In this document: piece by piece, positions 13,044 to 17,387 of the stretch
Layout of the letters: the number at the start of each line of letters is the position of its first letter
Numbering within the stretch: position 1 is the first letter of the stretch
Assembly (NCBI GenBank): GCA_902578315.1
Contig: CACHCL010000005.1
Location: 1-64,000, forward strand
Origin: an uncultured Pelagibacteraceae bacterium
GTDB taxonomy: Bacteria > Pseudomonadota > Alphaproteobacteria > Pelagibacterales > Pelagibacteraceae
DNA length: 64,000 nt
Direction of reading: 5' to 3'
The notes under the pieces: generated by a model
Databases searched by the model: none
Told to the model about the DNA's origin: nothing
What the model saw: only the letters and a program-made list of their open reading frames with translations
Translations under genes and position numbers: made by a program

Positions 13044-14114
13044 TTAAAAACATACTAGATGGTCAATATAAATCGGTGACTTAACACCGAATTGTTCTGA
13101 CTTCTCGTGTTGATGAATGTGATGGGAGTGAACAAATACCGGTAAATGCTCACCTTTTTTAGTCTTTAAAGTATAAATAAAATTTGTTCCTCTAAATTTT
13201 CTGTCAACTACTTCTAATTTTAGTTTACTTTGATCATCGTGAATTAAGTCCTCAGGCTGTAAAAGTAATTTAACCTTTGATCCAGATGGAAAATTATTTG
13301 ATAATTTCCCTCTTATTTCACCTAGTTCCTCATGTTTAAGTCTATGGACTGCACACTCACTATCTACTACCTGAACATCAATAAAAATTCCTTTATTTAA
13401 AAAATTAGCAACATCAATTGAATTAGGTTCATGGTGCACATTATAAGGTACATCATACTGCTTTAATTCTTGGTCTAGAATAATTCCACATTTATCAGCC
13501 ATCGAAAAAGCTTCATATGAGTCGTGTGTCACGATAATAGTTGTTAAATTAATTCTTTTTAAAAGCTTCTTAACAGACACTTGTATTTCTTCTTTTAAAC
13601 TTTGATCTATATTTGAGAATGGTTCATCCAACAAAAGCAGATCAGGTTTAGACATTAATGATCTAGCTAATGAAACCCGTTGTGCCTCCCCAGCACTTAT
13701 TTGATGAGGATATTTTTCCAATATAGGTTCAATTCTTAATAGTTCAATTATTTCTTTAACATCTACACTTGATCCATGGCCATTTGCTCTTTTTTCCCCA
13801 AAGTTTATATTATCAATAACTTTATAATTTGGAAAAAGAGAATTATCTTGAAAAGAAAGAGCCACATTTCTTTTTTCTGGCTCAATATGAATATCGTCAG
13901 AAGCTAAGATCTTATCTCTAAGTTTAATTCTACCTTCGCTAAGTTTTTGTAAACCGGCAATTGTTCTTAATATAGTGGTTTTGCCGATACCAGAAGGACC
14001 CAACAAAGAGATAATCTCTCCCTGTTTTTCTATAACTAAATTTACATTATTTACTTTATTTTTTTCACTCGCAGTAAAATTACCATTTTGAATTTCAAAA
14101 AAATTGTTGGTCAT
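13044..14114 (-). CDS. fbpC: ferric-iron ABC transporter ATP-binding protein
   Basis: ATPase of an FbpABC/AfuABC-type iron importer, 356 residues. Walker A GPSGIGKTT is at 39-47, the Q-loop is in FQDNSLFPN, Walker B is LLLLDEPFSNID and the switch histidine VTHDSYEA. The signature reads ISAGEAQR instead of LSGGQxQR, a modest departure that still keeps the key Ser and Gly. A C-terminal TOBE-like region is present. It follows the permease by 13 bases as the last gene of the operon. The iron substrate is inferred from the FbpA-type binding protein and the Fur boxes. Confidence 0.87.
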   Translation of the reverse strand: MTNNFFEIQNGNFTASEKNKVNNVNLVIEKQGEIISLLGPSGIGKTTILRTIAGLQKLSEGRIKLRDKILASDDIHIEPEKRNVALSFQDNSLFPNYKVIDNINFGEKRANGHGSSVDVKEIIELLRIEPILEKYPHQISAGEAQRVSLARSLMSKPDLLLLDEPFSNIDQSLKEEIQVSVKKLLKRINLTTIIVTHDSYEAFSMADKCGIILDQELKQYDVPYNVHHEPNSIDVANFLNKGIFIDVQVVDSECAVHRLKHEELGEIRGKLSNNFPSGSKVKLLLQPEDLIHDDQSKLKLEVVDRKFRGTNFIYTLKTKKGEHLPVFVHSHHIHQHEKSEQFGVKSPIYIDHLVCF

Positions 14115-14127
14115 TTAGTAGATTATA

Positions 14128-15744
14128 TTAATTTTTTTTTGAAAGTATATATCTAGATGAAATAAGTATCAAAATTGTAGACCAGAATATTAAAAAAAGT
14201 GATGGTAATGCTGCCGCTTCTAATAAATCTTGGGATGCATAAATATAAGCCTGAGTGGCAAATGTTTCGAAATTAAAAGGTCTTAAAATCATTGTCATGG
14301 GCAATTCTTTAATTATCTCTAAAGAAATTAACAAAACTATCAAAATTATATTAGTGCTTAGATAAGGTATATGAATTTTTAAAAATGTACTTATCTTAGA
14401 GTAACCAAGAAGATAAGCGCTCTCATCAATTGAATTATTAATTTTTTCATAACTCGATTTTATCCCATTAAAAGATAAAGAAAAAAATCTTATAAAATAT
14501 GCCAATGATAATCCAAAAATAGATCCAATAAATAAACTTTTTGAACTTTTAAAATTAAAATTATTTGTAAAAAAATCACTTAAATTTGAAAAGAAAGTAA
14601 TAAAAGCAACTGCTAAGATAACACCTGGTATCGCATACCCAGATATTGAAAAAGTTGTGAGGTAATTTAGAATTTTGCTTTTTGATATTCTGCTTCCATA
14701 ATTTATGAACAGAGAAACTATTACAATTAAGGTACTAGCTAATCCCACTAGCATCAAAGTATTTAAGTTAATTTTAAATATATTAATGTCTTGAATATAT
14801 TTTGGAAATTTCACTGTCCAATAAATCATTTGAGAAACTGGAAAAATAAAACTCAATAAAAAGATCAAAGAACAAACAGCAACTGGGATTATAGACCTTT
14901 TTCCAGTTAATTTAATTTTATTAATTGACTTAAAACCTCGACCTGGTTGATGATATTTTGCTTCTTGTCTTGAATAAATTTCTATTGAAAAAAGTAAGAG
15001 GATAAAAATAAGTAATATAAAAGATATCTGATTTGCTGTATTTAAGTCATCAAAAGACAGCCACGAATTATAAATTCCAGTAGTCAATGTATTCACACTA
15101 AAAAATGATACAGTTCCAAAATCTGACAAACATTCCATTGATACTAAAGCTAAACCTGCAATAATTGCTGGTCTTGCTGAAGGCAAAACTATTCTTAAAA
15201 AAGTTTCTTTTGAAGAAAGACCAAGATTTTTTCCTACTTCAATATAATTATTCGATTGATAATAAAATGATGCTCTCGTCAATACATAAACATACGGAAA
15301 CAAAGAAAACGATATAGATGTTATAGCTCCAACTAATCCATCTATTTTTGGAATAACGGGATTGTAATTATTTTCACCAAATAAAAATGTTAATAATGAA
15401 AAAGCTGTGCCATAATTTTCAAAAAAAGCAATTATTGAAAATGCATAAATATAACCTGGAACTGCGAACGATAAGATTAGCGCCCAACTAAAAAAATTTG
15501 ACAAAGGAAAATCATAAAAAGATACAAAGTATGCAGAAAAAATTCCAAGAATAAAAGTAAATAGTATTACAAATAATAAGATTGTTATTGAGTTGAAAAT
15601 ATAATCAAGCAAAAAAGTTTCTTTTAATATATAGAAATAATTACTTGTTTCGTTAAAAAAGCTAAGAAAAACTGTAATAATAGGCATAGCAACCACTGCT
15701 GCTACAATTAGTGATCCAAAAAACCATATATTATGTTTTGTCAT
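14128..15744 (-). CDS. fbpB: ferric-iron ABC transporter permease (two fused permease domains)
   Basis: Inner-membrane channel, 538 residues, with about twelve hydrophobic segments. As in FbpB/AfuB/SfuB, two permease units are fused in one chain; each has an EAA loop (GKNLGLSSKETFLRIVLPSA and, in the second half, LGYSKISTFLKIHIPY). One polypeptide therefore supplies both halves of the channel. It lies between the small CxxC gene and fbpC. A 96-base gap with a long-stem inverted repeat separates it from the upstream small gene. Confidence 0.9.
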   Translation of the reverse strand: MTKHNIWFFGSLIVAAVVAMPIITVFLSFFNETSNYFYILKETFLLDYIFNSITILLFVILFTFILGIFSAYFVSFYDFPLSNFFSWALILSFAVPGYIYAFSIIAFFENYGTAFSLLTFLFGENNYNPVIPKIDGLVGAITSISFSLFPYVYVLTRASFYYQSNNYIEVGKNLGLSSKETFLRIVLPSARPAIIAGLALVSMECLSDFGTVSFFSVNTLTTGIYNSWLSFDDLNTANQISFILLIFILLLFSIEIYSRQEAKYHQPGRGFKSINKIKLTGKRSIIPVAVCSLIFLLSFIFPVSQMIYWTVKFPKYIQDINIFKINLNTLMLVGLASTLIVIVSLFINYGSRISKSKILNYLTTFSISGYAIPGVILAVAFITFFSNLSDFFTNNFNFKSSKSLFIGSIFGLSLAYFIRFFSLSFNGIKSSYEKINNSIDESAYLLGYSKISTFLKIHIPYLSTNIILIVLLISLEIIKELPMTMILRPFNFETFATQAYIYASQDLLEAAALPSLFLIFWSTILILISSRYILSKKN

Positions 15745-15769
15745 TAATGAATTTACTTACCATATGAAG

Positions 15770-15825
15770 TTCTCTGGCTAAAGTGGCTTGAGTGTAGAAT
15801 GTAGTTAGCATTTAAAGCCAGAGAA
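15770..15825 (-). other. 10-bp stem with 36-base loop upstream of fbpB
   Basis: TTCTCTGGCT (15770-15779) and AGCCAGAGAA (15816-15825) are perfect inverted repeats in the gap between the CxxC gene and fbpB. The stem is GC-richer than its surroundings and has no T-run on either side, so it looks more like a structured mRNA segment or processing site than a terminator. Confidence 0.6.
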
Positions 15826-15840
15826 ATTGACATCAAAGTT

Positions 15841-16011
15841 TTAATCTTTTTTAAACATTGAAGAAACAATTGTTTTTACTTCCTCAATTTTTATTTCGGA
15901 AACTTTTCTATTAGAGAGTTTCTGCTCCATTTTTTTAGCTTCCAACATACAAGGCGAACAACCTGTTTTTAACTTATTCAAGTTAATTTCTTTTTTTATT
16001 GTTCGCCTCAT
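15841..16011 (-). CDS. 56-residue CxxC microprotein in the iron operon
   Basis: A short open frame, ATG at 16011 to TAA at 15841, encoding a basic protein beginning MRRTIKKEINLNKLKTG, then a CSPC motif (Cys18 and Cys21), then a Lys/Glu-rich, probably helical tail ending FKKD. It starts 11 bases after the fbpA stop and precedes fbpB, so it must be cotranscribed with iron uptake. The Cys pair could bind a metal or [Fe-S] cluster or act in thiol chemistry, but only two cysteines are present, fewer than in Bfd-type ferredoxins. I do not recognise the family. Its exact fit into an operon gap supports a real gene. Confidence 0.65.
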   Translation of the reverse strand: MRRTIKKEINLNKLKTGCSPCMLEAKKMEQKLSNRKVSEIKIEEVKTIVSSMFKKD

Positions 16012-16022
16012 ATAATTAACAA

Positions 16023-17042
16023 TTACCTCCAGCCTGCTGCTGTCATTACTTCTAAAGCATCTGCTTGTCTTTTTCCGTAATTGACAACTTTTGTTTTTAG
16101 ATCTTGTTTAAAATCTAATCCCATATTTACAACAAGTGGATGTGGAGACACACCTTTTATCATTGGATACTCAAAAGTATTATTTACAATATGATTTTGG
16201 GCTTCCTCACTTAATAAGAACTCAACTAATTTTATTGCGTTAGCTTTATTAGGCGCACCTTTTACAAGTCCAGCACCACTAATATTCATATGAGTTCCTC
16301 TTCCATCTTGATTAGGAAAGAAAGGTTTTACTTTTTTTGCAGCTGCTTGTTGTTCTGGTCCTTTTTTTCCAGACAACATTAGTGCAAGGTAATAAGTATT
16401 AGCTACTGCTATATCAGCTTCTCCTGCTGCAACAGCAAGTATCTGAGCTCTATCATTTCCCTTGGGTGATCTAGCCATATTTGAAACCATACCTTTTGAC
16501 CAATAAGCTATTTTACCTTTTCCATTATTTTTAATTAATGAAGCTACAAGTGATTGATTGTAAATATTGTTTGAAGCTCTAATTACTAGTCTGCCTTTCC
16601 ATTTTGGATCAGCTAAACTTTCATAAGTTAAACCAGCTAACTCTGCACCACTTACTCTTTCTGGAGCAAAATATACGATTCTTGCTCTTTTAGCTATACC
16701 AGTCCATTTTGATGTTCTGAAATTGCTAGGCACAGCTGATTTTATCGCTGCACTTGTTAGTCCCGCTTGAAGGTTAGCTTCAAAAGCACCAAGTCTTCCA
16801 GCATCAGCAGTGATGTATAGATCTGCTTGACTATCAGCTCCCTCTTCGATTATCCTTTTTTCTAAAGCACCTGATTTACCTGATACAACATTTACTTTTA
16901 TTCCTGTTTTAGCAGTAAACTTTTCATAAAGTTGAACATCAGAATCATAATGCCTTGCGCTAAATATATTTACTTCGTTTGCAAATAAACTTCCTGCAAA
17001 TGCAACTAAAAATAGATAGCTAATTATTATTGTTTTCTCCAT
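16023..17042 (-). CDS. fbpA: ferric-iron periplasmic binding protein
   Basis: FbpA/AfuA/SfuA-type binding protein, 339 residues. A signal peptide ends near residue 21 (AGSLFA before NEVNIFSAR). The mature start NIFSARHYDSD and the Tyr pair in ANTYYLAL, which in the family ligate Fe(III), are present. A good Shine-Dalgarno (GAGGA at about 17047-17051) precedes the ATG. Two Fur boxes lie 16-57 bases upstream, so strong induction under iron limitation is expected. It heads the operon fbpA - CxxC ORF - fbpB - fbpC. Confidence 0.92.
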   Translation of the reverse strand: MEKTIIISYLFLVAFAGSLFANEVNIFSARHYDSDVQLYEKFTAKTGIKVNVVSGKSGALEKRIIEEGADSQADLYITADAGRLGAFEANLQAGLTSAAIKSAVPSNFRTSKWTGIAKRARIVYFAPERVSGAELAGLTYESLADPKWKGRLVIRASNNIYNQSLVASLIKNNGKGKIAYWSKGMVSNMARSPKGNDRAQILAVAAGEADIAVANTYYLALMLSGKKGPEQQAAAKKVKPFFPNQDGRGTHMNISGAGLVKGAPNKANAIKLVEFLLSEEAQNHIVNNTFEYPMIKGVSPHPLVVNMGLDFKQDLKTKVVNYGKRQADALEVMTAAGWR

Positions 17043-17057
17043 TATTTCCTCGTTAAT

Positions 17058-17072
17058 TGATAATGATTATCA
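17058..17072. promoter_or_regulatory. Fur box 1
   Basis: TGATAATGATTATCA is a perfect 7-1-7 inverted repeat matching the Fur consensus core. It lies 16 bases before the fbpA start codon. The promoter-like TATATT (minus strand, 17083-17078) lies between the two boxes, so bound Fur would block transcription. Confidence 0.88.
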
Positions 17073-17084
17073 TTTACAATATAT

Positions 17085-17099
17085 TGATAATGATTATCA
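17085..17099. promoter_or_regulatory. Fur box 2
   Basis: Second identical TGATAATGATTATCA, centred 27 bases from box 1. It lies 9 bases before the -35 element of the divergent small gene, so both directions may respond to iron. Confidence 0.88.
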
Positions 17100-17171: not shown

Positions 17172-17387
17172 ATGTTACAAATTAATCCAAAAAAATTTAA
17201 AAAAATTCACAACAAAACAATTCCATCTCCTTTAAGACCAAAATTTAGGAATAAAGCTGAAACAAATATTTATTTTCTCTCAAAAAGAAAATTTCAGGGT
17301 GAAAAAAGACAAACATTCATTAAAAATATAAAATTTATAATTGGAATTACATTATTAGTTGTTGGTGGATATTTTCTCTCTAATTAA
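17172..17387 (+). CDS. 71-residue basic protein with C-terminal membrane anchor
   Basis: A small Lys/Arg/Asn-rich protein with one hydrophobic segment at about residues 51-68 (KFIIGITLLVVGGYF) and a short tail, so probably a tail-anchored inner-membrane protein with a cytoplasmic basic domain. It has its own promoter-like sequence and GAGG (17157-17160) 11 bases before the ATG. It diverges from fbpA next to the Fur boxes and converges on the hydratase gene with an 8-base overlap. I do not recognise a family; a link to iron is only by position. Confidence 0.6.
   Translation: MLQINPKKFKKIHNKTIPSPLRPKFRNKAETNIYFLSKRKFQGEKRQTFIKNIKFIIGITLLVVGGYFLSN

Follow-up and report, generated by a model that had tools for sequence, protein, structure and literature searches.

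The window analysed here is a stretch of 64,000 nt from an uncultured bacterium of the Pelagibacteraceae. Its minus strand carries the genes of a ferric iron importer, encoding the binding protein, the permease and the ATPase, all adjacent and co-oriented, with an additional small frame inserted between the first two. In the order of transcription, the features of the locus are as follows:

17085–17099, minus strand: Fur box 2, exact TGATAATGATTATCA
17058–17072, minus strand: Fur box 1, exact TGATAATGATTATCA
16023–17042, minus strand: fbpA (sfuC), periplasmic Fe(III)-binding protein of the SBP family, assigned by domain search and synteny
15841–16011, minus strand: CxPC microprotein gene, 56 aa, MRRTIKKEINLNKLKTGCSPCMLEAKKMEQKLSNRKVSEIKIEEVKTIVSSMFKKD, with cysteines C18 and C21
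15770–15840, minus strand: intercistronic RNA element, a GTTTGACGTCAAT-like start followed by a hairpin
15816–15825 and 15770–15779, minus strand: arms of the hairpin, TTCTCTGGCT and AGCCAGAGAA, z −3.17
14128–15744, minus strand: fbpB (sfuB), permease, BPD_transp_1
13044–14114, minus strand: fbpC (sfuA), ABC ATPase

A preliminary description of this DNA had reported a 56-residue frame with a CSPC motif between fbpA and fbpB, 11 bases past the fbpA stop, and the coordinates agree: the fbpA stop codon occupies 16023–16025, the microprotein begins with an ATG at 16011 after an 11-base spacer, and CSPC falls at residues 18–21. The same description had the frame filling the space between the two genes. 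It does lie between them, but 96 nt (15745–15840) holding a strong hairpin are left between its stop and fbpB. The FbpABC/SfuABC importer, sfuCBA in SAR11, shares the three transporter genes, their order and the Fur boxes upstream; unlike it, the window operon has an extra CxPC gene between the binding protein and the permease, which HTCC1062 lacks. What is new here is a ferric importer operon that carries the gene of an additional, lineage-specific CxPC protein.

Fur control of the operon, predicted beforehand, is well supported. Both boxes upstream of fbpA are perfect matches to TGATAATNATTATCA, and a box with at most one mismatch precedes fbpA in 68 of 68 relatives examined; moreover, Fur-family genes are present in the window genome. 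The gene order shows the microprotein gene to be placed for reading from this putatively Fur-controlled fbpA message. In four loci (L064, L068, L105 and L108), the microprotein copy overlaps the start of fbpB, a pattern of co-translated genes. In strain HTCC1062, iron limitation raises sfuC mRNA 16-fold and the level of its protein up to 27-fold, the values for sfuC, sfuB and sfuA, 16, 10 and 5, being ratios of induction and not amounts (PMC2864753). Divergent to fbpA, beyond the Fur boxes, lies a frame of 71 aa, hydrophobic over a C-terminal segment (17172–17387, plus strand), found by tblastn in 61 of the 70 related loci, in some of them maybe cut short. It is possibly a second small iron-responsive protein.

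Coding status, distribution and loss of the microprotein gene

From a scan of named genomes (records titled Pelagibacteraceae, Pelagibacterales or Ca. Pelagibacter), we obtained 70 related loci, of which 67 hold an intact microprotein and 69 the CxxC; the three exceptions have an early stop (L070), a frameshift before the CxxC (L102) and a frameshift after it (L087). The preliminary description had proposed looking for purifying selection, and this is what we observed. The median pairwise dN/dS is 0.15 (1769 pairs), and substitutions are concentrated at third codon positions (350, 248 and 976 at positions 1, 2 and 3). Together, the ratio and the third-position excess argue for a genuine protein-coding gene under purifying selection, and, judged from sequence, the microprotein gene is real, distinct from the three importer genes and selectively maintained. 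Apart from its short length, nothing speaks for a chance open frame, an explanation whose probability is negligible and which we consider ruled out by the dN/dS and by intact homologs conserved at the same position across genomes. Selection on the microprotein is nevertheless weaker than on fbpA, whose last 150 codons show a dN/dS of 0.02, and it evolves far faster.

We found a match to the microprotein in 247 of 397 sampled genomes of the order, belonging to four of 13 genus codes; the one genus outside the family is represented by a single marginal match (E 0.003), which was not counted. A search between fbpA and fbpB in SAR11 genomes, as suggested beforehand, located homologs at the same place of the Fur-controlled operon in one family, under three genus codes. 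Wherever a locus was read out, the gene lies between fbpA and fbpB, about 30 nt or less from fbpA, with the single exception of one locus at 219 nt. Among 385 sampled genomes of Alphaproteobacteria, we found no convincing homolog outside the family, the matches being the window genome, one genome of the sister genus and two marginal ones with internal stops, and no relative was found among the IMG/VR viral contigs searched. Since neither the class sample nor the viral contigs yielded real relatives, a wide family was rejected.

Within the window genus, 34 of 50 sampled congeners have a match (one of them, G328, marginal and without fbpA) and 16 have none. As fbpA was detected in nine of these 16, about 33 of about 42 fbpA-bearing congeners keep the microprotein, an estimate that assumes fbpA in those matching genomes that were not checked one by one, and that the loci read out support. 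The sister genus (Pelagibacter-type; 114 genomes, minimum completeness 90%) has fbpA in 103 genomes, the microprotein in 94 and both, adjacent, in 93. Had most operon-bearing relatives carried a frameshift or lost both cysteines, this would have spoken against the gene, but it is not what these genomes show (about 33/42 congeners; 93/103 in the sister genus). In the other seven of the 16 congeners that lack the microprotein (for example G077, G130 and G006), no match to fbpA was found at E ≤ 1e-40, although some of them are 94–98% complete; part of the window genus may lack the importer altogether.

Congeners without a microprotein match have short fbpA–fbpB junctions. In L152, L153 and L156, the beginning of the gene is still recognisable as a remnant, and L157–L160 hold divergent copies that retain the CxxC. 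In G067 of the sister genus, the copy is frameshifted ahead of the second helix. On a tree of fbpA, the present/absent label needs eight changes, at least four of them forced by well-supported branches; rates are unreadable from this tree, as its loci were chosen by presence. One sister-genus genome without the gene, G066, we take to be Ca. P. ubique HTCC1062, because its fbpA match ends at 1,181,968 on the minus strand, in agreement with the intergenic region reported upstream of sfuC in that strain (1181972–1182071; PMC2704228). Its junction of 80 nt holds only a hairpin, and the contiguous tags SAR11_1236–1238 of sfuA, sfuB and sfuC (PMC2864753) fit the absence of the microprotein. Several lineages, G066 included, keep fbpA and fbpB without the microprotein, which is therefore not required for import; it is an accessory gene, an optional helper and not a part of the transporter.

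The hairpin and neighbouring genes at the junction

The GTTTGACGTCAAT-like block ahead of the hairpin is almost unchanged. Across 36 aligned sequences from the window genus, 97.2% of the cells of the hairpin are paired, with covariation in four pairs, as compared with 28–55% in sliding controls. The hairpin is single-copy, no second copy having been found in the genomes searched, so a dispersed repeat was rejected. Rfam returned no match at E ≤ 1 for the window hairpin stretch, and the hairpin of L098 gave chance microRNA-type hits far below the cut-off. In the sister genus, this junction likewise bears strong hairpins, unrelated in sequence, also in some genomes without the microprotein. We infer that the hairpin would stabilise or process the message and so separate fbpA, along with the microprotein, from the permease. 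The order of induction in HTCC1062, with sfuC above sfuB and sfuB above sfuA (PMC2864753), agrees with such a role and does not prove it.

With a strong conserved hairpin immediately downstream of it, the frame could in principle be leader-like, not a functional protein, and its translation would then act only on the hairpin and, through it, on the permease gene. This we regard as very unlikely: the selection acts strongly at the amino acid level, so that the dN/dS largely refutes the idea, and gene and hairpin occur independently of each other, the gene without the hairpin in L042, L045, L064, L084 and L085 and the hairpin without the gene in L215 and L220–L222.

Further genes have settled at the same junction. 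About 500 nt separate the microprotein gene from fbpB in nine of the 70 loci, and all nine hold a flavodoxin-like frame of about 148 aa, one of them confirmed by Pfam (E 5e-25), with the hairpin preceding it. These loci (L039, L043, L044, L047, L060, L062, L066, L071 and L076) are scattered across the fbpA tree (nine changes). In L136 and L142 of the sister genus, a peroxiredoxin-type gene, Pfam-confirmed in one case, lies at this junction, while in L164 and L166, from the other family of the order, such a gene, read from its translation, comes just after fbpA. The redox setting of these neighbours is suggestive only.

We also looked, by co-occurrence, for a Bfd-like role together with ferritin, which was discarded as the PF00210 hit proved to be a rubrerythrin-like gene. 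In 24 genomes of the sister genus, this gene occurs more often in those lacking the microprotein than in those with it (9/10 versus 5/14; Fisher p 0.013), but the association fails on the tree (four independent pairs, sign test p 0.5) and is treated as confounded by descent; the pattern was not seen in 15 genomes tested of the window genus. The rubrerythrin-like gene adjoins a Fur-family gene, for example in L229 (G066), and is patchy, being present in 14 of the 24 sister-genus and one of the 15 window-genus genomes.

Protein features and possible functions

Across genera, C18, C21 and R35 are the sole invariant columns, with P20, S38 and E44 nearly invariant. Conserved cysteines had been named in advance as support for a metal role, and they are the best-conserved feature, with the CxxC, a potential pair of metal ligands, retained across genera and in all intact sister-genus copies read out. 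The proline of CxPC is not always kept, as CPAC, CKTC and CSTC occur. A third cysteine, giving CxxCxxxC, is present in nearly all sister-genus copies that were read out (one of the readouts comprised the 29 best-scoring copies and is hence biased); L228 has a valine there, and the position is alanine in the window genus and valine in the third genus code. Positions i, i+3 and i+7 of this motif lie on one face of a helix. An all-helical AlphaFold model of low confidence (mean pLDDT 68, pTM 0.32) places helices at residues 19–33, starting at the CxxC, and 42–54; a PDB fold search with it gave no match. No membrane segment or export signal was seen, which suggests that the microprotein resides in the cytoplasm. 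The preliminary description supposed it to be possibly undescribed. Searches of Pfam, NCBIfam and PDB sequences gave no family match, only weak and inconsistent hits, and we found no description in the library of open-access literature on SAR11 iron and small proteins that we consulted, so the microprotein is apparently undescribed.

On sequence grounds, a metal or redox role is plausible. The CxxC alone cannot separate metal binding from redox chemistry or a structural zinc site. The reading we favour, to which we give somewhat less than an even chance, is that of a cytosolic dithiol handling iron or another metal during iron starvation. Under iron shortage, Fur would release the operon and the microprotein would be made together with the binding protein, the two genes lying on the upstream side of the hairpin, with the permease gene beyond it. 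The pair of invariant cysteines where the helix starts, three on one face in the sister genus, would form a metal-binding dithiol, its site probably completed by the pairing of two microprotein chains. After import, the protein may receive, hold or pass on iron, or shield it from peroxide, in an auxiliary role that lineages can do without. Its location, its co-expression with fbpA, the dimer-completed site and the helper role after import are all what we infer. Metal handling is suggested by the selection and the conservation of the CxxC, by CxxCxxxC, by the strict linkage to fbpA and fbpB, by the Fur boxes and overlaps with the fbpB start, by the induction of sfuC (PMC2864753) and by the flavodoxin and peroxiredoxin genes at the junction. 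Against it stand the weak structure model without a PDB match, the fast evolution relative to fbpA, and the dispensability of the gene, absent from the very strain used for the iron-limitation study.

The main rival is a small thiol-redox protein that binds no metal. Its CxPC dithiol would alternate between the reduced state and a disulfide, and so give electrons to, or take them from, iron reduction, a peroxiredoxin or chemistry linked to flavodoxin. We consider it fairly unlikely. CxPC does resemble redox motifs, genes for potential partners lie nearby (flavodoxin in 9/70 loci, peroxiredoxin in four), and five of 25 members gave weak NCBIfam hits of the MTH895/ArsE thioredoxin-like type (TIGR00412; best E 0.0014), which likewise has a CxxC followed by a helix. 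However, the window protein scores 14.7 bits against a cut-off of 62, it is shorter than the profile, the weak model shows helices only and none of the beta strands of thioredoxin, the proline is variable, and metal binding better fits the third cysteine found in the sister genus.

Bfd (bacterioferritin-associated ferredoxin) and FeoC are likewise very small proteins of the cytosol that have cysteines and a link to iron, and in these respects the microprotein is alike. A single chain, with two cysteines, could not build the four-cysteine site of Bfd, no Bfd or FeoC hit at E ≤ 1 is among the Pfam families listed for 25 members, and the window genome, 83.8% complete, gave no ferritin-family hit.

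Small, basic, Fur-regulated proteins also act in iron sparing, namely FbpA, FbpB and FbpC of Bacillus subtilis. Like them, compared here by description, the microprotein is small, predicted to be Fur-controlled and often basic, and it might be a regulator of iron starvation that binds RNA or protein, its cysteines holding structural zinc or sensing iron. We judge this improbable. The basic flanks noted in the preliminary description hold for the window genus (net charge +5 to +13, median +8) but are not general: in the sister genus, charge ranges from −1 to +10, with copies at about 0 or −1, so that, unlike the cysteines, basicity is not a conserved property. Nor is the hairpin simply the target of the microprotein, as it exists without the gene. 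This precedent is among the works cited in the reference list of PMC2864753.

A further step from the metal-handling reading, and a doubtful one, is that the microprotein founds a new family of cytosolic iron-accepting proteins, encoded by most SAR11 within the ferric importer operon, that are produced alongside the binding protein and take over iron at or after the membrane. That the cultured model strain lacks it would account for its having been overlooked. SAR11 cells, among the most abundant in the ocean, live at very low iron, and few iron-handling proteins are known from them. HTCC1062, as a model strain, does not represent the full operon, and the extra conserved gene in most SAR11 ferric-import operons is a concrete candidate for a step still missing from the picture of iron handling.
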